Source: a virus. Taken from it: DNA of 61,687 nt. Position numbers and translations under genes: made by a program. Within the stretch, counting starts at the first letter, position 1; each line of letters opens with the position of its first letter. The notes under the pieces are model-generated. The model was not told the origin of the DNA, made no database searches, and worked only from the letters and a program-made list of their open reading frames with translations. The stretch lies in the IMG/VR virus record IMGVR_UViG_3300047476_001269, positions 1 through 61,687 of that record. The stretch is one strand, 5' to 3'. Shown piece after piece: positions 17,248 through 49,057 of this stretch.

Positions 17248-17323
17248 GCGGGTAAAGTGTTTATGGTTACACGTCAGTCTTCCAAACTGAAATAGAGGGG
17301 TTCGAATCCCCCTTCCCGCTCCA
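17248..17323 (+). tRNA. tRNA-Gly (TCC)
   Basis: Acceptor GCGGGTA/TTCCCGC with one mismatch, D stem GTGT/ACAC, anticodon stem TCAGT/ACTGA with loop CTTCCAA, T arm AGGGG-TTCGAAT-CCCCC with one terminal mismatch, encoded CCA. Confidence 0.9.
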
Positions 17324-17324
17324 T

Positions 17325-17400
17325 GCGTCTGTAGCTAAGTGGAACAGCAGAAGCCTCTAAAACTTCAGAAGCGTGGGTTCGATTCCCACCAGACGCACCA
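17325..17400 (+). tRNA. tRNA with anticodon CTA (amber suppressor type)
   Basis: Acceptor GCGTCTG/CAGACGC, D stem closed by GCT/AGC, T arm GTGGG-TTCGATT-CCCAC, discriminator A and encoded CCA are all sound. The anticodon stem is GAAGC/ACTTC with a C31-A39 mismatch around loop CTCTAAA. With T33 fixed, the anticodon is CTA, which reads UAG. An Arg (TCT) reading would need a C at position 33, which tRNAs do not tolerate. The arm looks like that of a tRNA-Arg (GAAGC-CTTCTAA-GCTTC) with one T lost and one A gained. The variable loop has six bases. Confidence 0.75.
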
Positions 17401-17570
17401 GATTCTCCGTCGTTCCCGATAGACGAAAACTCATCGGCGAAGTAGGCCAACTGCGTGAAGAAATGGCTCGGGGTTAACAGTGTCCGCAATGATTGTTCGG
17501 CAGGTGGAGTCGTTAGACTCTGATGAAGTTGAGAATAACCAGAGTTATACATTGATTTTAGAGATTAATA
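17401..17570 (+). other. intergenic spacer after the tRNA array
   Basis: 170 bases without a credible gene. Two small potential hairpins are visible: CGTC/GACG near 17408-17425 and GAGTC/GACTC near 17507-17520. No T-run terminator and no tRNA features are seen. Confidence 0.4.
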
Positions 17571-17759
17571 ATGAACGAACACTTCGCAAAACAAATTGAA
17601 CAAGGTGCCACAGAAATGTTCTTCTATGGCCTAGAACGACCGGATCCGCACACTGTAAGCATTATGAGCCACAAAGGCACACTTGACTCTTTTCCAACCA
17701 ACTTGGAATATATCCGACATTTAAGCGAAGGTATGCCACTATTCAAGGAACCACAATGA
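17571..17759 (+). CDS. hypothetical protein (62 residues)
   Basis: A short soluble protein with no recognisable domain. It begins after an A/T-rich leader with only a weak ribosome site (GAGATTAATA). Its TGA overlaps the next ATG, which is the main support for it being a real gene. Confidence 0.55.
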   Translation: MNEHFAKQIEQGATEMFFYGLERPDPHTVSIMSHKGTLDSFPTNLEYIRHLSEGMPLFKEPQ

Positions 17760-17977
17760 ACGAACGAATTCGAGAATGTTGGATCAAGGCTGCTAGAGAA
17801 GATTCTGACCCAGATAATTGGGATACGCAAGAACAATTTATTGAACGATTTGCTGGGTTGATTGTGGCAGAATGCATGGATGTGTTTGGTCAAAATTTAC
17901 CAGAACCAGGCGATGGTAGAATGACCGAAGTAGTTGATAGAATCTGCCGTGTGGCAGAACATTTTGCAGTAGAGTAA
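17756..17977 (+). CDS. hypothetical phage protein (73 residues)
   Basis: Contains the pattern FIERFAGLIVAECMDV, which recurs in many small phage proteins of unknown role. Acidic, no membrane segment. Coupled by ATGA overlap to the gene at 17571. Confidence 0.65.
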   Translation: MNERIRECWIKAAREDSDPDNWDTQEQFIERFAGLIVAECMDVFGQNLPEPGDGRMTEVVDRICRVAEHFAVE

Positions 17978-38319: not shown

Positions 38320-38348
38320 TTTACATTATAAATGATCAAGTGTATAAT
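38320..38348 (+). promoter_or_regulatory. early promoter of primase, nearly leaderless
   Basis: TTTACA, a 17-base spacer and TATAAT end nine bases before ATG 38358, which has no ribosome binding site. Confidence 0.65.
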
Positions 38349-38357
38349 GTATCAAGC

Positions 38358-39455
38358 ATGAATATCATACAGACCGAAGTTAATAGTTTATTGCCAGCAC
38401 AGCGCAAGACTGCAAATAAATGGATCAGTTTTAACGCTCCTTGCTGTGTGCATACAGGCGAAACACAGGATCGGCGCAGGCGCGGCGGCGTGCTGTATGC
38501 GTCTGACGGTGGAGTGAGCTATCACTGTTTTAATTGCGGATTCAAAACCAGTTATCGCCCTGGGCGAGCTCTTAGCTACAAGTTCAAGCGTTGGTTGGAA
38601 TGGATGGGCGCAGATCACAATCTGGTGCAACGCCTGGTTATTGAAGCTCTGCGTATAAAAGAACAATCACCAGAACAGATACAAGCACAAAGCAAGAGCA
38701 ACACTATTAGTTTTGCTCCTAGGTCTTTGCCCGAGAACAGCGCCACTCTTAGACAGCTAGGCTTGACCATGGCACTAAAAATGCAGTGGAACGAAAACAA
38801 TCAAATTCTTTGGGACGAAACACTGGTACCATCTGATGTTCTAGCAGTGTTAGACTATGTGGGCACTCGTTACACTGATAGATCAAAAAATTATGATTTC
38901 TATTACACAGACGAAACCAGTTACAATCTACATCGCAGAGTGATCATACCCTTCTATTGGCAGAATCAATTGATTGGATACACAGCTCGTGCTGTGTATC
39001 CAGATGTCAAGCCCAAGTATCATTCTAATTACGAGCCAAACTATGTGTTTAACATGGATCAACAGACTGCAGAAAAACAGTTTGTGATTGTGGTTGAAGG
39101 ACCTTTTGATGCCATGGCAGTGGATGGTGTGGCTGTGCTCAGCAGTGAAGTCAGTGAATTGCAGGCCGATATCATAGACAGTCTTGGTCGTGAAGTGATT
39201 GTGGTTCCGGACTTTGATGCACATGTTAACGAGAAGACTGGTAAAAAAGTTTGGGCCGGTCGTAGTCTAATTGAAGCAGCATTGGATTATGGATGGAGTG
39301 TGAGCTTTCCGGTATGGTACGAAAATTACAAGGATGTGGCAGAGGCAGCCACTGCATTAGGCAGTTTATTTGTGCTCAAGAGTATATTGGATGCACGACA
39401 ATCTAATCCCTTAAAAATTGAACTGCAAGCAAAACAAATATATAATAAACTATGA
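38358..39455 (+). CDS. 61: DNA primase (gp61-like)
   Basis: A 365-residue primase. The N-terminal zinc-binding site is formed by C29/C30, H32, C57 and C60 (PCCVH ... YHCFNCGF). The toprim core near residue 240 has VIVVEGPFDAMAVDG, with the catalytic Glu, then the VVPDFDAH acidic motif. It synthesises RNA primers for lagging-strand replication with the helicase encoded directly downstream (4-base overlap). The start at 38358 is preferred over an earlier in-frame GTG (38340), which lies within the promoter. Confidence 0.88.
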   Translation: MNIIQTEVNSLLPAQRKTANKWISFNAPCCVHTGETQDRRRRGGVLYASDGGVSYHCFNCGFKTSYRPGRALSYKFKRWLEWMGADHNLVQRLVIEALRIKEQSPEQIQAQSKSNTISFAPRSLPENSATLRQLGLTMALKMQWNENNQILWDETLVPSDVLAVLDYVGTRYTDRSKNYDFYYTDETSYNLHRRVIIPFYWQNQLIGYTARAVYPDVKPKYHSNYEPNYVFNMDQQTAEKQFVIVVEGPFDAMAVDGVAVLSSEVSELQADIIDSLGREVIVVPDFDAHVNEKTGKKVWAGRSLIEAALDYGWSVSFPVWYENYKDVAEAATALGSLFVLKSILDARQSNPLKIELQAKQIYNKL

Positions 39456-40852
39456 CCACAGAATACAACACAGAAGTACAACGACTGTTTCTTGAAATGA
39501 TGTTACACGACGCCGAATGCTATATTCGTGTGCAAAACATTTATAATGACGAAAATTTTGATCGTAGTCTTAGATCTGTGGCACGTTTTATTAAACAACA
39601 TGTAGACGAACACAAGAGTCTACCTACACTAGATCAGACACGAGCAGTCACTGGCACCGAACTCAATCCTATGCCAGACATGGGAGAAGGACAAACCAGC
39701 TGGTTCATGAAAGAGTTTGAACAGTTTACCAAACAAAAAGAACTAGAACGTGCTATTCTCAAAGCCGCAGACCTTCTAGAAAAGGGAGATTTCAATCCTG
39801 TGGAAAAACTGATCAAGGATGCTGTGCAGATCAGTATTACCAAGGATTTGGGCACAGATTTCTGGGCTGATCCCGAAGGCATGTTTGCCAAGTATTTTGA
39901 CGCAGGCGGACAGGTGAGCACAGGTTGGCCGCAGTTGGACAAACTGCTCTACGGTGGCTTTAGTCGCGGAGAACTAAACATCTTTGCAGGTGGATCGGGC
40001 TCGGGTAAATCCTTGGTTATGATGAACATTGCATTGAACTGGGTACAGGCAGGTTTGCATGGTGTGTACATCACACTGGAATTGAGCGAAGAACTCACAG
40101 GCTTGCGTACAGCGGCCATGCTGGCCAACATGAGTACCAAGGATATTCGCAAGGACAAAGAAACAGCAGCACTCAAGGTCAAAATGGTGGGCAAACGAGC
40201 AGGCAGTTATCAGGTCAAGGCACTGCCAGCGCAAAGCAACATCAATGACATTCGTGCTTTCTTGAAAGAATACCAGATACAAACCAATCGTAAAATTGAC
40301 TTTATTATGATTGATTATCTAGATCTGCTCATGCCAGTAAGTGCCAAGGTTAGCCCTAATGACTTGTTTGTTAAAGACAAATATGTAAGTGAAGAATTGC
40401 GTAATCTAAGCAAAGAGTTAGGCATACTCATGGTCACCGCTAGTCAGCTGAACCGTAGTGCTGTTGAGGAGATTGAATTTGATCACAGCCATATTTCCGG
40501 TGGTATCAGTAAGATTAACACAGCAGATAATGTGTTTGGTATCTTTACTTCACGTGCAATGCGTGAGCGTGGACGCTATCAAATACAGTGTATGAAGAGT
40601 CGTAGTTCCACAGGTGTGGGCATGAAAGTGGACTTGGAATACAATATTGAAACCATGCGTATCACTGACCCAGGAGAAGATGCAACTCCAGGTACATCGC
40701 ATCCGGATTCAATCATGAATAAAATCAAGATCAGCAGTAGAGTAACTGAAACCACAGATATGGAAACTGGAGAAGTTACACCTATAAAAGCTGATGCTAA
40801 TGGCAGCAAGCTCAAAAGCATGTTGGCAGGAATCAAAGCCAAGAGCGTTTAA
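39452..40852 (+). CDS. 41: replicative DNA helicase (gp41/DnaB family)
   Basis: A 466-residue hexameric helicase. The N-terminal helical domain covers residues 1-130. The RecA-like domain has Walker A FAGGSGSGKSLVMM (180-187 core), a GVYITLELSEE segment, Walker B FIMIDYLDLL and MVTASQLNR with the later arginine-finger region. It unwinds the fork 5'-3' and binds the primase. It ends 55 bases before the late operon at 40908. Confidence 0.92.
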   Translation: MTTEYNTEVQRLFLEMMLHDAECYIRVQNIYNDENFDRSLRSVARFIKQHVDEHKSLPTLDQTRAVTGTELNPMPDMGEGQTSWFMKEFEQFTKQKELERAILKAADLLEKGDFNPVEKLIKDAVQISITKDLGTDFWADPEGMFAKYFDAGGQVSTGWPQLDKLLYGGFSRGELNIFAGGSGSGKSLVMMNIALNWVQAGLHGVYITLELSEELTGLRTAAMLANMSTKDIRKDKETAALKVKMVGKRAGSYQVKALPAQSNINDIRAFLKEYQIQTNRKIDFIMIDYLDLLMPVSAKVSPNDLFVKDKYVSEELRNLSKELGILMVTASQLNRSAVEEIEFDHSHISGGISKINTADNVFGIFTSRAMRERGRYQIQCMKSRSSTGVGMKVDLEYNIETMRITDPGEDATPGTSHPDSIMNKIKISSRVTETTDMETGEVTPIKADANGSKLKSMLAGIKAKSV

Positions 40853-40907: not shown

Positions 40908-41171
40908 TTGCTTAAACGCACTCGCAGCATTTTAGATGAACTTGATAGCCATTTGATTACCAAGGACCGTGAGCACCTGCTGGAAAGCCGTGCTGGACAT
41001 GTGATACAAGGAGCTATCAATCTAATCAACATGATTAGAGAAAACTATGATGCAGACGCTGCTGCTGAATTAGAGCGCAGACTATTGAATAGTATCCGTG
41101 CGCAAGACCCCGCAAAGTTTACTCGAGGAGTACGGAGACTAAAAAGTGAAAACCCAACATCTAACGATTAA
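40908..41171 (+). CDS. hypothetical late protein (87 residues)
   Basis: Starts at TTG with GGAG upstream. It is entirely helical and charged (SILDELDSHLITKDREHLLESRAG). The LLE-S and LDE sequences resemble T4 prohead-protease sites. It overlaps the next gene by 26 bases. Role unknown; probably virion assembly. Confidence 0.6.
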   Translation: MLKRTRSILDELDSHLITKDREHLLESRAGHVIQGAINLINMIRENYDADAAAELERRLLNSIRAQDPAKFTRGVRRLKSENPTSND

Positions 41172-43371
41172 CACTGCATTATACCAACACCCAGTATTTA
41201 GAGAATTTTACGAAGAGGTTCAACGCTGCAATCGTGTGCTTGCAGAAGCTCGCAAACGTTTGCTTACTGAAGATCAGCTGAATGCTCAGCAGATTGATCA
41301 GATTTTTAGACTGGTAGCAGATGGTGCCGCTGCTGGTAAAAACACCGACAGCGGCGAAGTTGATATGGGCAGCAATAAGACTGCACTTGGTAAGGTTACC
41401 GGTGCAGTGGGCGATGCTATGTCCAAGCTCAAAAGCAAATGGGAAAGTTTAAAGGACTGGGTGAGCAAGAGTGGCCCAGTACAAGGATTTGATGTGGCAT
41501 TTGATCAACTGCAAGGCAGCTTGTTAAATGCCATGGGCGGCGAGGGCGGCAAGGTTGCCAACGCCATGCAAAAGTATAGACAGTTTGCAGTTAAACACCC
41601 TGTGGCACAAGGATTTATTCTAGTTGCACTTGCAGCACTTGCAGGCACAGCCATGGGTGGCGGCGCAGCAGCAGTTGCTGGTGTGACCTTTGGAATTAGA
41701 ACCATTGATGCATTATTAAAAGGTCACAAGTTTAGTAGCAGTGTGTACAAAGGTGCAAAGGCCGCTGCGGTTATGACTGTTGCAAGTCTTGGTATAAATG
41801 CGATCATTGATAATTTTAATCCAGATCCAACACCGGGTCCTGGACCATCGCCAACACCAGATGTGCCACCAAGCCCAACACCAAGCCCAGACGTACCGCC
41901 ATCACCAGATGTACAACCTGTGCCAGATCTAACTCCAACAGACTATACCATTCGCGCCGGAGACACACTGAGTCAACTGGCTTCAGACAATGGTATTACT
42001 GTTCAGGACATCATGGATGCCAATCCAAACATTACTAATCCCAATGGCATGACCGATGCAGGTCGTTTGCTTCAACCGGGTGATACTATCAAGATACCAC
42101 AGTCCATGGACTTTAGTCCTCCTCCGGTATACGCAGGTGGTACAGGCACACTAGCAGACACCATTCAGAAAATGATGACCGGTCAATACAGCGGCGATGC
42201 CAATATTGCATTAAACGCTTTAAAGAATGACCCATCGCAATTAAAGTTATTAAGTCCAGAACAAGCAGCTTGGGCCAAATCTCAAATTACCAAACTGGCA
42301 GAGAGTGCCAGAAGAGTACAATGGATTGATCGTGATGCTACTGTTCGCACATGGGCACTGAATGAAAGCCTTGGTCGTACTAGAGGTGGTGTAATGCTTA
42401 CCGAAGCAGGCGTAAATGAAGTGTTCCGCAGAGTTGAAGAAGGTGTATGGGATAGTATCAAGAAAGGTGCTGGTGCAGTAGCCGGGGCAGTCGGTAACGC
42501 TGCCAAGAAAGGTTGGAATTCGGCCACCAACAAGATCACCTATGACAGTCTTGGCATGAACTGGCGTTCTATTAATCCTAACAGACTAAAAGGCAATGCC
42601 ACTGGCATGACTGCTGATAGCAGAGATATTGAAGTATTTTTGCGACGCCAAGGAGTTAAAGATCCTTTAATTTTCAGCGTGTACAAACAAATGGGTATTC
42701 CTATCAGCACCATTGCTACTACACAAGATGATACAGACGTGGCAGGACAACCGGCAGACGATAAAACACAAGCTCAAGCAACACAAGCAGCCGCTGGCAG
42801 CACAACTGCACAAGCAGGTGGTGCAGGAGCGACACAAGCAGGTGGTGACAAGGTTGGAGATGCAAATGATCTTATTAGAGACCTTGAGGCAGACCAAGCT
42901 AGAAAAGCAGCAGGTGGAGCAGCAAAAACTGGTACCGCAGGCGCTGGTAGTTCTTCTCAAGCCAAGAATCCTTATGCATATGATTATGCAGCAGCGGCTA
43001 AAATAGCAGGTATTAAACCAGCGGCTGCTAAACCTGACTATAGCAAGATGATGCCAGGATACAGCAGTCAGAAGATGACTATGAAAACTCCTACAGCAGC
43101 AAAACCAGCAGCAGCCGCCCCAGTTACAGGCAAACCAGGAGTGCAAGGTGCGGTACCCAAGACACAAGCACCGGCGCAACAGACAGCAAGTGCTGCAACT
43201 GAAAAAGAGCTAGATGATTTTGTAAAAGCCTCAGATGAGTTAGCTAATTACGCAAAAAATCAGCAAGTCGCCGCAGAAGGTCGTCGCATGTATGGTGGCA
43301 AGTACATTCGTGAAAGTGCAGCACAACGAACTGCACGTGAGTTTGAACACTATCTAAAAAATCTAGGCTAA
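41146..43371 (+). CDS. large LysM-domain protein, probable virion protein
   Basis: A 741-residue protein starting at GTG with CGGAG upstream. A hydrophobic Ala/Gly-rich stretch lies at about residues 155-195. It is followed by a Pro-rich linker (about 225-265) and one LysM domain at about 266-325 (YTIRAGDTLSQLASDNGITVQDIMDAN ... LLQPGDTIKIPQ), which binds peptidoglycan. The second half is Ala/Gln-rich and low complexity, with several L/I-x-E-S/A sites (LNES, LTEA, IRES) like T4 gp21 cleavage sites. It may travel inside the head or tail and meet the cell wall; the exact position is inference. Confidence 0.7.
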   Translation: MKTQHLTINTALYQHPVFREFYEEVQRCNRVLAEARKRLLTEDQLNAQQIDQIFRLVADGAAAGKNTDSGEVDMGSNKTALGKVTGAVGDAMSKLKSKWESLKDWVSKSGPVQGFDVAFDQLQGSLLNAMGGEGGKVANAMQKYRQFAVKHPVAQGFILVALAALAGTAMGGGAAAVAGVTFGIRTIDALLKGHKFSSSVYKGAKAAAVMTVASLGINAIIDNFNPDPTPGPGPSPTPDVPPSPTPSPDVPPSPDVQPVPDLTPTDYTIRAGDTLSQLASDNGITVQDIMDANPNITNPNGMTDAGRLLQPGDTIKIPQSMDFSPPPVYAGGTGTLADTIQKMMTGQYSGDANIALNALKNDPSQLKLLSPEQAAWAKSQITKLAESARRVQWIDRDATVRTWALNESLGRTRGGVMLTEAGVNEVFRRVEEGVWDSIKKGAGAVAGAVGNAAKKGWNSATNKITYDSLGMNWRSINPNRLKGNATGMTADSRDIEVFLRRQGVKDPLIFSVYKQMGIPISTIATTQDDTDVAGQPADDKTQAQATQAAAGSTTAQAGGAGATQAGGDKVGDANDLIRDLEADQARKAAGGAAKTGTAGAGSSSQAKNPYAYDYAAAAKIAGIKPAAAKPDYSKMMPGYSSQKMTMKTPTAAKPAAAAPVTGKPGVQGAVPKTQAPAQQTASAATEKELDDFVKASDELANYAKNQQVAAEGRRMYGGKYIRESAAQRTAREFEHYLKNLG

Positions 43372-43372
43372 C

Positions 43373-44470
43373 ATGCGAGTACGTGAAATCATTCTAGAAG
43401 GCGGCAATGTGCAGATTGGCACACAATCTGCACAGCGTCTAGACCTAAAAAAACTCAAACGAGATCAACTGATACCTGTATTGGATCAACTGCTACAGGC
43501 TATCAATGTTGGTTTTGCTAAGATGCACAAGAAACCGCTATGGAGTCCAAGATTGGTTGCTAGCCGTAAGTTTTTAAGTGGCAGTGCGTTTCATTTTTTT
43601 AATGTAGCAGGCATTCCTAGTGATCAATTTGTTAAATTCAAACCCACAGTAGGCGATATAGACACACAAGTTGATCAAACTCTACTGGAACCTGCCAAAC
43701 AGTTTTTGGATGCTGCTACCGGCAAACAGTTTGGTCCTGCCACATTGATAGGATACAAGGCCAGTGTAGAACAGTTGATCACATTGTGGGCTTTCAGCGA
43801 TCCTCCGGTAAATGTGCAAATTGATCTAGAGTTTGTAGAATATGAAGGCGATGAACCAACAGAATGGGCACAGTTCAGTCACAGCAGTGCATGGAATGAT
43901 ATCGAAGCAGGTATTAAAGGAGTGTTCCACAAGTACCTATTACGAGCACTTAGCACACCCAGTCTACGTGATGTTGTAATTCTCAGTGGTAAGAAGGAAA
44001 CTCCTAAAATAGTTAAAACTACCGACCTTGCATTTGCAGTAACTCGTGGGTTGCGATATAAACTTCGTCCAGTAATGGATGGCAATGTGCAAAGAGAAAT
44101 GGATGGTCTCAAAGTATACAAAGAAATTCCTACCAAGGAAAGTACATATGAAACCAACCTGTACATAATTGCCAAGATATTCTTTGGTAACCAATTTGAT
44201 GCTGATGATATAGAAAAGTTTTGGAGTTATTTAGGTACACTAGAACTGGTTAAAAAATATTTTGATAAATCTCAGCAGGCGGCTGTAATAACAGGATTTG
44301 TTTACACACTGTTTGGACCAGGTGCACAGGAACTGTATCGTGGCGATCCTGAACAGGATGCTCAGGATAAAAATGCTGCACTAGATATCATGGTTAAAAC
44401 ACTTGGCGTTCCTTACGATAAAAAATCAGTTGATGCCATGCGCAAAGACTATTATTCCACTCAAACATGA
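43373..44470 (+). CDS. DNA polymerase beta-superfamily nucleotidyltransferase
   Basis: A 365-residue protein with the Pol-beta nucleotidyltransferase pattern: LSGSAFHFF (G70-S71), then D95-x-D97 in VGDIDTQVD, and the third carboxylate D151 in VQIDLEFVEY. The C-terminal 150 residues are helical. It would transfer nucleotides to DNA, RNA or protein. The first residues (MRVREIILEG) contain an I-x-E-G site and resemble T4 capsid-targeting sequences. It starts one base after the LysM gene and overlaps the ligase-like gene, so both are made together, late. Confidence 0.7.
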   Translation: MRVREIILEGGNVQIGTQSAQRLDLKKLKRDQLIPVLDQLLQAINVGFAKMHKKPLWSPRLVASRKFLSGSAFHFFNVAGIPSDQFVKFKPTVGDIDTQVDQTLLEPAKQFLDAATGKQFGPATLIGYKASVEQLITLWAFSDPPVNVQIDLEFVEYEGDEPTEWAQFSHSSAWNDIEAGIKGVFHKYLLRALSTPSLRDVVILSGKKETPKIVKTTDLAFAVTRGLRYKLRPVMDGNVQREMDGLKVYKEIPTKESTYETNLYIIAKIFFGNQFDADDIEKFWSYLGTLELVKKYFDKSQQAAVITGFVYTLFGPGAQELYRGDPEQDAQDKNAALDIMVKTLGVPYDKKSVDAMRKDYYSTQT

Positions 44471-45948
44471 TGTTTAATATAGACAGTTTGTTTTTTGAAA
44501 GTGAAGTTGCGGCCACAACAAGGTCAAACATGCTACACCTGCAAAAAATGACCGACACTGCATTTGTACAGTTTGTACAAGACGTAAAACAAAATCTTCA
44601 AGGCAAGTTGCAAGGCATCCCTGTAAGTCTCAAGGTTGATGGTCTGGGTGCAAGATTTGGACGTGACAGTACAGGACGTCCTTTCTTTGAAGGCAGTCGT
44701 ACAGGTGCTATCTTTGAGCCGGGTGCATTCAGCAAGTATACAGCATCCAAAGGTGGCACTCCTGAAATGATTTCTCGTGCGCAACACTACGATGATATTT
44801 TTGATACTATTACCAAGAGTAATTTTATTAAGACTCTTCCCAAGGATACCAAGATAGTTTGCGAGATATTCTACAATCCACTTGGTGAGATGGTTGAAGG
44901 GGGTATAAAATTTGTAAACATTGCATACGATCCTAGTCGTTTGGGCCAACTGATGACCATTGTGCCATTCAAAGCCTTGCTGGCTAGCACAGGAGAAACA
45001 CACCCTAACAGTGATCTCATCATAGACTCACTGTTTCAGCAGAGTACTCAACAGATTAAATTTGTAGACACCCGACTGGAAATTAAAGGCAGCATTGATA
45101 TTAGCACTGTGGTGGATCCGGTGACCAGTCTGGATGCTCAGGCTATTGCTACATTAAACAGTCGTAAACATAGTGATGCAGATGCCAAGGCTTATCTTAA
45201 ACAGATTGTGCAACAAACCAAAGAATCCCTGGCAGATTTTATTTTAACCAATCCACAAATAGTAGATCGTTTCAAACTAGGACCTAATATAGAAGGTATT
45301 GTATTGAATATCAATGGTAGAGACATTAAGGTAACTACCAGCGAATTCAAGCAGGCAATTGCAGCCAAAAGAGCACAGACAAATGAAAGCACAGGTTTTT
45401 TACAAGAGCTCGTGGAAGCCAGAATGTTTGTGTATCCCGAAAATCTCAAAGGCAAAGACGCTGTGACCATGTCCAGATTGTTATTTTGCAGTTTGTTGGC
45501 CTTGGAAATTCTGCGATATGAAAATGAATACAAAGCACAAGAGTACGTGAACCGTACTATGACATTTAATGATTTTGATCATTTGCGCCCTAGTGCTACA
45601 GATCTAGCCAATTTGATTTCAGTTGTGTCCAATCAAGATCGTTATTTAGATGGTGTTAAAACCAAGATAGGTTTGTATGCACCTGAGCTACAGATAAAAG
45701 CACATCTAAGAACTTTTGCAGGAGCAAAAAATGATACTTCAAGAATAAGACAGTTTTTGTTGAAACTTGATGATGCTCTAATGATTGCCGGCGCAGACCT
45801 GCGTCAAGCTCGTAGAATCATAGGTGATTGGGAAAGAGCCAGCGAAGGTGAAAAGAAAGCGGCATGGGCTACATTAACTAGGGTTTTTATTAGTCACGGT
45901 TCACAGCTGGATATCTATCTGTTGGCAAAGCAATTTTTCATATTCTAA
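44467..45948 (+). CDS. covalent nucleotidyltransferase (DNA/RNA ligase-like)
   Basis: A 493-residue protein with all motifs of the ATP-dependent ligase/capping superfamily. Motif I is K56-V-D-G59 (SLKVDGLG), motif Ia SRTG at 77-80, motif III KIVCEIFYN with E133, motif IV EGIVL at 276-280, and motif V DIKV with K288. A C-terminal helical domain of about 180 residues follows. K56 would be adenylylated. It could seal nicks or act on RNA ends; the pairing with the adjacent nucleotidyltransferase suggests end repair plus ligation. T4 gp30 and the T4 RNA ligases look different, so this is probably a separate branch. Confidence 0.75.
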   Translation: MMFNIDSLFFESEVAATTRSNMLHLQKMTDTAFVQFVQDVKQNLQGKLQGIPVSLKVDGLGARFGRDSTGRPFFEGSRTGAIFEPGAFSKYTASKGGTPEMISRAQHYDDIFDTITKSNFIKTLPKDTKIVCEIFYNPLGEMVEGGIKFVNIAYDPSRLGQLMTIVPFKALLASTGETHPNSDLIIDSLFQQSTQQIKFVDTRLEIKGSIDISTVVDPVTSLDAQAIATLNSRKHSDADAKAYLKQIVQQTKESLADFILTNPQIVDRFKLGPNIEGIVLNINGRDIKVTTSEFKQAIAAKRAQTNESTGFLQELVEARMFVYPENLKGKDAVTMSRLLFCSLLALEILRYENEYKAQEYVNRTMTFNDFDHLRPSATDLANLISVVSNQDRYLDGVKTKIGLYAPELQIKAHLRTFAGAKNDTSRIRQFLLKLDDALMIAGADLRQARRIIGDWERASEGEKKAAWATLTRVFISHGSQLDIYLLAKQFFIF

Positions 45949-46452: not shown

Positions 46453-46478
46453 AAAGGCACTTTCATAGTGCCTTTTTT
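46453..46478 (+). terminator. rho-independent terminator after gene at 46018
   Basis: Stem AAAGGCACT/AGTGCCTTT with a 5-base loop, running into a T tract. Confidence 0.9.
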
Positions 46479-47988: not shown

Positions 47989-48675
47989 ATGCGATTACAA
48001 GAACTAGGCGGTAAAATTACAGCCAAACGTATTAACAAAATCAATGAAAGCCGTTTTGGTTTTAACATTGATTTTGACAAACTCACAGTGGCCAAAGCCA
48101 AAGTTTTGGCACGTGCGCTAAGTGAAAATCTAGACCGTCTACGCCGTAGCTACGGTTTGCACACAGCAGAAAAAAATCCAAAGTACATGGAAATGCTCAT
48201 GGTGCGAGAAGGACTGGTTCGCTGGGTTGACGAGCGTCGTGCTCTAACCGAAAGCGAAATGGGCAAATCAGAAGCTATTCTAGCTGCCAAGGACATGGTA
48301 GATTCAATTCAGGACATGATTGAAGATGTGAGTCGCATGCAGAATGAACAAATGCCTGCGCTGATTGACACAATCCGTGATCAAATTGGCAGCGAGCAAG
48401 CTGACATGTTTAAGAGCCAAGTAGGCGGTGTACTAGGCACAATCCTACAACAGCTAACTGATGCACGTGAACAAACTGACAACGCTGCACGTGGATTGGC
48501 CGGCGAAGGTTCTCCTGATATGGGCATGGGTAGTGCAGATATGGGTGCAATGCCTGGAGCAGCACCTACAATGGGCCCAGGCAGCGACATGGACAGCGAA
48601 ATACCCGGCGATGAATTTGGCGCAACAGATGCTGCCGCAGGCGGCGATCTAGGCCTAGGCAGAGAAAAACGCTAA
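47989..48675 (+). CDS. probable capsid-interior or scaffold-type structural protein
   Basis: A 228-residue protein. Residues 1-20 (MRLQELGG...INE-S) resemble a capsid-targeting peptide ending in an I-x-E site. Residues 40-165 are long helices (LTESEMGKSEAILAAKDMVDSIQDMIEDVS), and the tail is Gly/Met/Asp-rich and disordered. To my recollection similar proteins occur in T4-like phages of cyanobacteria. A head core or head-tail role is inferred. Confidence 0.65.
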   Translation: MRLQELGGKITAKRINKINESRFGFNIDFDKLTVAKAKVLARALSENLDRLRRSYGLHTAEKNPKYMEMLMVREGLVRWVDERRALTESEMGKSEAILAAKDMVDSIQDMIEDVSRMQNEQMPALIDTIRDQIGSEQADMFKSQVGGVLGTILQQLTDAREQTDNAARGLAGEGSPDMGMGSADMGAMPGAAPTMGPGSDMDSEIPGDEFGATDAAAGGDLGLGREKR

Positions 48676-48676
48676 C

Positions 48677-49057
48677 ATGCGAATCTGCGAGTTGCACGAA
48701 AGCACAGATGGTGATGCTAACCTCATCACCATTTTGCAATTTTTACGCAACAGAAGTCATAATAAAAAAATCACTCCAACGATCAATACACAGAGTTTGA
48801 TCAACATGGTTAAAAATCAAGGTGGATCTGAATGGTTCACTTATGATAATCTTGTTGCAGCTCAAACAGCCAATCCAGCAGTGTCTGGTTTGATCAAAAG
48901 TCTAGACAATGAAAAAGTCACCCTCAATGGATTTGGCGATGAAATTGACGCCAGTGAAGTGGACAAAGCACAGGCCGGCAAGAATCAAGCTAAAACACCA
49001 GACCCACAGAAAACTGTAAGTGCAATGGCCAAACGTGCCGCTGCCAATCGCTCTTAA
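48677..49057 (+). CDS. probable virion protein with capsid-targeting-like N-terminus
   Basis: A 126-residue protein starting MRICELHES, with an L-x-E-S site at residues 6-9. The centre contains NMVKNQGGSEWFTYDNLVAAQTANPAVSGLIKSLD. The C-terminus is basic. It follows the previous gene by one base and belongs to the same late unit. To my recollection such proteins occur in T4-like phages; no enzymatic motif. Confidence 0.65.
   Translation: MRICELHESTDGDANLITILQFLRNRSHNKKITPTINTQSLINMVKNQGGSEWFTYDNLVAAQTANPAVSGLIKSLDNEKVTLNGFGDEIDASEVDKAQAGKNQAKTPDPQKTVSAMAKRAAANRS

Follow-up and report, generated by a model that had tools for sequence, protein, structure and literature searches.

A predicted Pol-beta nucleotidyltransferase and an RNA-ligase-like protein that may form a head-packaged end-repair module in T4-like phages

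We analyzed a 61,687-nucleotide stretch of viral DNA (IMG/VR record IMGVR_UViG_3300047476_001269, positions 1 to 61,687; hereafter, the window), in which two adjacent genes at positions 43373 to 45948 encode a predicted Pol-beta-fold nucleotidyltransferase (P0001) and an RNA-ligase-like protein (P0002). The two open reading frames (ORFs) share four bases (44467-44470), as a first-pass annotation made from the sequence had reported. P0001 is a member of phrog_19290, a family of unknown function, and P0002 weakly matches phrog_12709, also of unknown function. Neither protein was matched in Pfam, searches of PADLOC and NCBIfam gave no useful match to either, and a sequence search of solved structures returned nothing meaningful. 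The features of the pair are listed below, where a slash marks a predicted cut and pLDDT is the predicted local distance difference test score.

43373..44470, + strand: P0001, predicted Pol-beta-fold nucleotidyltransferase (365 residues), phrog_19290; from ORF call, phrog match, predicted structure, and alignment
43373..43399, + strand: putative capsid-targeting propeptide MRVREIILE (residues 1-9) of P0001, predicted cut before G10; motif in 40/40, pLDDT 40 (residues 1-10), five homologs start M-GGN
43580..43585, + strand: nucleotidyltransferase motif G70-S71; invariant, n = 41 sequences
43655..43663, + strand: nucleotidyltransferase motif D95-I-D97; D95 and D97 invariant, n = 41
43823..43831, + strand: third carboxylate D151 (with E153); invariant, n = 41
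43913..43936, + strand: family signature I-K-G-V-F-H-K-Y (residues 181-188); all eight columns invariant, n = 41
44467..45948, + strand: P0002, predicted RNA-ligase-like covalent nucleotidyltransferase with a C-terminal helical region (493 residues); from ORF call, alignment, and predicted structure
44467..44499, + strand: putative P0002 propeptide (residues 1-11, ...LFFE/S), P3 = F, off-consensus; aligned to LTE/, LVE/, and INE/ in relatives, mean pLDDT 47 (residues 1-10)
44632..44643, + strand: ligase motif I, K56-V-D-G; K56, D58, and G59 invariant, n = 47
44863..44865, + strand: ligase motif III, E133; invariant, n = 47
45292..45297, + strand: ligase motif IV, E276-G277; invariant, n = 47
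45328..45330, + strand: ligase motif V, K288; invariant, n = 47
45409..45417, + strand: second protease-type site, L315-V-E317/A318, between the ligase core and the C-terminal region of P0002; from the site list, low-pLDDT segments 317-324 and 326-328
45418..45945, + strand: P0002 C-terminal helical region (residues 318-493), low confidence; no relative outside the closest contig

Alignments confirmed the active-site motifs that the first-pass annotation had read in the two proteins, namely, GS...DxD...D in the first and ligase motifs I, Ia, III, IV, and V in the second. G70, S71, D95, D97, D151, and E153 are invariant across 41 P0001 homologs, and an insertion lengthens the spacing between GS and DxD in P0001. 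Across 47 P0002 homologs, K56, D58, G59, R63, S77, E133, E276, G277, and K288 are invariant, with S77-R forming a motif Ia-like element.

The same annotation had proposed structure prediction as a check and had named absent nucleotidyltransferase folds as grounds against it; AlphaFold2 models supported both predicted folds. The P0001 model had a mean pLDDT of 93.3, with residues 1-10 as the sole segment below 50, and it matched solved structures of Pol beta/mu with Foldseek probabilities of mostly 0.96-1.00. Its best VIA-align Z score was 8.6, to DNA polymerase mu (178 residues at 3.9 A). The P0002 model was confident up to residue ~310, and its core aligned with Naegleria RNA ligase (Z 10.4, 190 residues, 3.5 A) and T4 Rnl2 (Z 9.1), with Foldseek probabilities of up to 1.00; DNA ligases ranked lower (Z 8.2). 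Because the Z values for both proteins are moderate, the fold calls rest on Z together with the invariant motifs. According to its model, P0001 is a Pol-beta-fold nucleotidyltransferase, with homology not proven at this moderate Z value, and would have the corresponding activity. P0002 is predicted to hold an RNA-ligase core, in which a lysine would be adenylylated and through which strands would be sealed. No match to P0002 was found among the RNA-ligase families of Pfam and NCBIfam, and relatives sought for its C-terminal region included none that were convincing outside the closest contig.

The association of the two genes extends far beyond the window. Searches with tblastn recovered relatives of the nucleotidyltransferase from Vibrio, Campylobacter, Xanthomonas, and Stenotrophomonas phages and from 80 viral contigs, most of which encode nucleotidyltransferase and ligase as a single chain that continues into a domain bearing GSFVGHxGH and G[MIV]SxTxLR-like motifs (the HxGH domain). 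The closest relative, a 355-kb contig, has a nucleotidyltransferase 96% identical to P0001. With the ligase alignment as seed, a scan yielded 55 nonredundant ligase loci (cited where needed by L numbers), 54 of which have the nucleotidyltransferase in cis; the remaining contig ends before its position. Nucleotidyltransferase, ligase, and HxGH domain form a single ORF in 37 of the 55 loci, adjacent separate nucleotidyltransferase and ligase genes occur in 11, and there are a few mixed arrangements besides. In X1 and Mendera, all three are separate neighboring genes, and Vibrio phage Va1 encodes, close downstream of the nucleotidyltransferase, a protein in which a KTDG ligase-like part is joined to a CTP_transf_like domain (QAU04508.1, L003:10358-11812). 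This spread across fused, adjacent, and separate-gene phages indicates that the association is wide and probably old. The first-pass description of a two-enzyme kit thus suits the window and falls short for its relatives, which usually have a third enzyme and one fused polyprotein. Two further arrangements were observed: a 2073-residue fusion (L013:5761-11982) with NTP_transf_2, Amidoligase_2, and DUF6934 domains after nucleotidyltransferase-ligase-HxGH, and a GNAT acetyltransferase gene between nucleotidyltransferase and ligase (L242:5291-5959) whose product has a start of its own resembling a capsid-targeting sequence (MTSFKEYLQE) and is perhaps a further packaged enzyme. The single match to the nucleotidyltransferase among cellular genomes was in a metagenome-assembled genome; this copy agrees with that of L015 in length and N terminus and probably lies on a phage contig.

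The N terminus of P0001, which the first-pass annotation had likened to a capsid-targeting peptide, bore out that comparison in the model and in the family. In T4, gp21 cleaves behind L/I-x-E, and the internal proteins (IPs) have propeptides of 10-19 residues that are capsid-targeting sequences (PMC9026906). In P0001, the segment MRVREIILE/GGN is disordered in the model, and its site, IILE/G, has the L/I-x-E of a T4-like tag. In all 40 propeptide-bearing nucleotidyltransferases, a short peptide ending in [LIV]-x-E immediately precedes an invariant GGN, with L, I, or V at P3 and E before the cut. Five nucleotidyltransferases without the peptide (Va1, phiKT1024, X1, Mendera, and L085) begin exactly at M-GGN and have no usable upstream start. 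Such a pattern is what a removable propeptide before a fixed mature start would be expected to leave. Several separate-gene N termini are close to the start of T4 IPIII (MKTYQEFIAE/A), including those of the nucleotidyltransferases of L008 (MKSFKQYILE/GG) and L221 (MLRFKQFIIE/GG) and of the ligases of L230 (MIISFKEFIAE/S) and L242 (MTTFKEYLVE/S). The T4-tag shape was found in 16 of 171 genes in separate-gene loci, a count that includes the near-duplicate loci L015 and L217, versus 0.13 expected from internal positions. Enrichment of [LI]xE[AGSD] at gene starts across the whole window was weak (11 genes versus 5.1 expected), so the case for packaging rests on the family and not on the window alone.

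Protease-type motifs are also distributed nonuniformly within the fusions. In 38 nonredundant fused proteins, [LI]xE[AGS] occurs 36 times in propeptides (2.9 expected) and 28 times in nucleotidyltransferase-ligase linkers (3.2 expected), and it is depleted in the nucleotidyltransferase core (3 versus 23.3) and in the ligase core (13 versus 22.9); expectations were obtained by shuffling, and kinship among these related sequences was uncorrected. The linker motifs differ in their letters (ITEA, LSEA, INEA, LAEA, and LQEA), a variety that speaks against one string having simply been inherited, with the caveat that the proteins are related. Usually no cut motif lies between ligase and HxGH, so the predicted mature parts are the nucleotidyltransferase and a ligase-HxGH protein. 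Of 12 carrier contigs, 6 encode a gp21-type prohead protease (PF03420), among them the 355-kb relative; the window contig, a fragment, is without one. The gp23 precursor of the 355-kb relative has LAE/S in the expected place, where other gp23 precursors have LSE/S or LHE/A. Two genes of unknown function in that relative (L311:13609-14247 and 17290-17910) encode products with almost canonical T4-type starts (MKTFKTYLQE/S and MKSLKEYIAE/S).

The third domain of the fusions is an HxGH nucleotidylyltransferase that resembles NadR/NMNAT (TIGR01526, E 1.5e-5) and belongs to the cyanophage cytitidyltransferase family (532 phage records). Virions of S-SM1 were found to contain one member of this family, T4-GC190 (PMC3037559), and those of S-SCSM1, S-CBWM1, S-SZBM1, and S-CREM2 to contain NMNAT-like or cytidylyltransferase proteins (PMC9602691, PMC10665884). 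In Syn19, the HxGH-family protein starts MKKFSAFLNE/A and follows a KWDG ligase-like gene of family DUF6267 (PF19782). A search of the 355-kb relative for the HxGH partner gave three PF01467 matches, two of which looked like sugar-nucleotide-type enzymes. DUF6267 has ligase-like motifs K-W-D-G, E-G-[YF]-V, and K-[LI]-V-D-R (L219:6001-7950, L117:3830-4801) and, in L219, is fused behind a P0002-type ligase. Profile comparison aligned only the motif I segment with P0002 (probability 28%); homology was not accepted, and the family was kept as a lead. By its motifs and this fusion, DUF6267 is a candidate second ligase family of unrecognized covalent nucleotidyltransferases.

The genes around the pair bear on the expression and company proposed for it. 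Three features flank it.

40908..41171, + strand: small virion structural protein, phrog_11854 (head and packaging); E 1.3e-17
41146..43371, + strand: LysM protein (GTG start), adjoining P0001 upstream, with six [LI]xE[AGSD] sites; PF01476, E 3.4e-11, and site list
46453..46475, strand not assigned: terminator-like hairpin downstream of the gene that follows the ligase; pattern match only

The upstream LysM protein of the first-pass annotation was recovered; the claim that the pair follows it rather than the replication genes was half right, since replicative primase/helicase genes (38340-40852) lie just upstream, with the phrog_11854 and LysM genes in between. Virion structural proteins, phrog_11854 and phrog_14154, flank the pair. 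The late promoter that the annotation had placed over the operon was not recovered: TATAAATA occurs three times in the window, which is a chance number, and none of the copies is near the operon. The [LI]xE[AGSD] sites of the LysM protein lie near its N terminus, middle, and C terminus and are partly conserved in the closest relative (L007), and this may be another virion protein that is processed along with the pair. Farther downstream, neighboring genes at 47989-48675 and 48677-49057 encode products that start MRLQEL...INE/S and MRICELHE/S, resembling the P0001 start; the former is a predicted virion structural protein, and the counterpart of the latter in a relative starts MLIRELHE/S. Their starts make both products candidates for copackaging. 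In a transfer RNA (tRNA) cluster, ARAGORN called a tRNA-Pyl with a CUA anticodon (17325-17400), which may be either suppressor-like or miscalled.

Considering these results together, we propose that T4-like phages load P0001 and P0002 into the prohead as a nucleic acid end-repair module. The N-terminal peptides would direct the proteins to the scaffold core in the manner of capsid-targeting sequences, after which a gp21-type prohead protease would remove the tag behind [LIV]-x-E, leaving a nucleotidyltransferase that starts with GGN. In most relatives, the polyprotein (nucleotidyltransferase, ligase, and HxGH nucleotidylyltransferase) would also be cut at the linker, freeing the nucleotidyltransferase from the ligase part. 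Once mature, the enzymes would leave the head together with the genome; nucleotides lost from a broken 3' end would be replaced by the nucleotidyltransferase, and the ligase would close the nick. The likeliest target would be RNA (e.g., tRNA) cut by a host anti-phage nuclease and restored before phage gene expression. Two points favor an RNA substrate: RNA ligases are the top-ranked matches of P0002, and pairs of an RlaP-type nucleotidyltransferase and an RNA ligase are predicted to repair tRNA.

We give this reading as a whole, a module that is packaged in the head, processed, ejected, and directed most likely at RNA, about an even chance of being correct. Packaging of the module by the family as a whole appears probable; for P0002 of the window phage, our estimate is lower because its own N-terminal site is FFE/S. 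The idea of an end-repair kit packaged for injection, put forward as a possibility by the first-pass annotation, thus gains indirect, consistent support from the N termini resembling capsid-targeting sequences, the protease-type sites at N termini and linkers, the gp21-type protease in carrier contigs, and the homologs of the third partner in cyanophage virions (PMC3037559, PMC9602691, PMC10665884). Several points weigh against it. Some of the tagless nucleotidyltransferases are from isolated phages, and in Va1, X1, and Mendera the ligase and HxGH partners examined were likewise without tags; given these homologs and that of L085, packaging is not universal, and some lineages may not package the module. 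The N-terminal site of P0002 departs from L/I-x-E, with F at P3 in 2 of 47 homologs. The HxGH partner was not found in the window contig, and the authors of the cyanophage proteomes warn of possible carry-over in purification (PMC10665884). No kinase, phosphatase, or 2H enzyme was recognized as part of the module, so that repair of the ends that metal-independent RNases produce would call for additional enzymes. Finally, no computed result separates RNA from DNA substrates.

The substrate is where two of the alternatives diverge from RNA repair. A packaged pair could act on the incoming phage DNA, repairing nicks or gaps in damaged packaged DNA or at its ends. Large eukaryotic DNA viruses carry virion-packaged repair enzymes, and delivery together with the DNA would fit such a role, as would the best solved matches of P0001 (DNA polymerases mu, lambda, and beta) and the presence of DNA ligases among the P0002 matches (Z about 8). 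For P0002, however, RNA ligases score above DNA ligases, and no DNA-binding domain was recognized. T4-like phages, moreover, normally produce a ligase and repair proteins of their own at an early stage, and we consider DNA repair unlikely. A module acting on nucleotides or proteins appears quite improbable: the HxGH enzyme, nucleotidyltransferase, and ligase-like adenylyltransferase would rebuild nicotinamide adenine dinucleotide (NAD) or modify a host target (AMPylation or NMPylation) as an injected counterdefense. The resemblance of HxGH to NadR/NMNAT and its frequent direct fusion to the ligase without a cut motif are consistent with this, phage NAD-synthesis enzymes and their role in conflicts have been reviewed (PMC9503650), and protein modification has been proposed for Pol-beta nucleotidyltransferases of polyvalent proteins (PMC5512222). 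The window phage, however, has nucleotidyltransferase and ligase, with no HxGH gene found in the recovered contig, which makes NAD synthesis unlikely as the shared function of the pair; nick-sealing RNA ligases also stand first among the fold matches of P0002.

That the proteins are ordinary cytoplasmic end-repair enzymes, with the N-terminal motif being a structural or regulatory peptide rather than a packaging tag, would agree with the tagless homologs in isolated phages, the off-consensus P0002 site, and the lack of the late promoter motif near the operon. Such a role would leave several observations unaccounted for, including the independent [LI]xE motifs at linkers and their depletion in both cores, the separate-gene N termini nearly identical to the IPIII capsid-targeting sequence, the P0001 model, in which the tag is disordered and the GGN start is structured, and the tendency of the tag to be present or absent on module partners together. 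We consider a purely cytoplasmic role decidedly unlikely.

If the head-packaging proposal is correct, its consequences would reach beyond this locus. We tentatively suggest, with somewhat less than even confidence, that many T4-like aquatic phages preload their heads with an end-repair kit (Pol-beta nucleotidyltransferase, RNA ligase, and often an NMNAT-like enzyme), made as a tagged polyprotein and cut by the prohead protease, that answers host RNA damage or NAD loss before phage gene expression. Phage RNA repair is known as a response begun after infection starts, and a repair module arriving together with the genome would amount to prophylactic counterdefense. The proposal gives phrog_19290 a testable role and suggests why NMNAT-like proteins recur in cyanophage virions. 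Additionally, [LIV]xE cut motifs combined with N termini resembling capsid-targeting sequences may allow injected proteins to be cataloged solely from their sequences.

The first-pass annotation had called this a new kind of system, which is too strong, because head-packaged polyvalent proteins and RlaP nucleotidyltransferase-RNA ligase pairs have already been described (PMC5512222, PMC7824862). Internal proteins, polyvalent proteins, and nucleotidyltransferase-RNA ligase repair are each known singly; the literature searched yielded no description of their combination, of the near-universal linkage, or of a polyprotein whose linkers carry prohead-protease-type sites. P0002 resembles the nick-sealing T4 Rnl2 and Naegleria RNA ligases in its predicted fold and in motifs I, III, IV, and V and differs from them in having no match to a Pfam or NCBIfam RNA-ligase family. 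RlaP (PF10127), which occurs with ATP-grasp RNA ligases, similarly ties a nucleotidyltransferase of the Pol-beta superfamily genetically to an RNA ligase, and these pairs are predicted to restore lost nucleotides before ligation, repairing tRNA cut by defense RNases (PMC7824862). RlaP systems are not described there as head packaged, as is proposed for the P0001 module. P0001 itself was rejected as an RlaP protein by profile, with no PF10127 match at E <= 5, none in 12 carrier genomes, and an hhalign probability of 0.1%.

Polyvalent proteins (Iyer et al. 2017, PMC5512222) resemble the module in being multidomain, in joining unlike enzymes, and in being predicted to be packaged and injected. 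Unlike enzymatic domains share one polypeptide in the nucleotidyltransferase-ligase-HxGH fusions of the relatives; in the window, nucleotidyltransferase and ligase are separate genes, and their products are putatively packaged. In the portion of that study considered here, the minimal nucleotidyltransferase is mainly one of Firmicute mobile elements, no packaged RNA ligase is described, and processing is mainly by built-in metallopeptidase domains, whereas processing by the prohead protease is proposed for P0001 and P0002. The cyanophage cytitidyltransferase or NMNAT-like protein (T4-GC190) is homologous to the third enzyme, and members of its family have been found in virions. Unlike the module, Syn19 and Melnitz have DUF6267 in the ligase position, and no P0001 homolog was found among the neighbors that were tested. 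A further parallel, in processing, is with the T4 internal head proteins (IPI, IPII, IPIII, and Alt), which share an N-terminal propeptide of ~10 residues ending in L/I-x-E, the gp21 consensus. The payload here differs, being a nucleotidyltransferase and an RNA-ligase-like enzyme, mostly within a multidomain polyprotein with internal cut motifs; if packaged as proposed, it would add a multienzyme, polyprotein-encoded kit to the small inhibitors and the ADP-ribosyltransferase among the T4 internal proteins.

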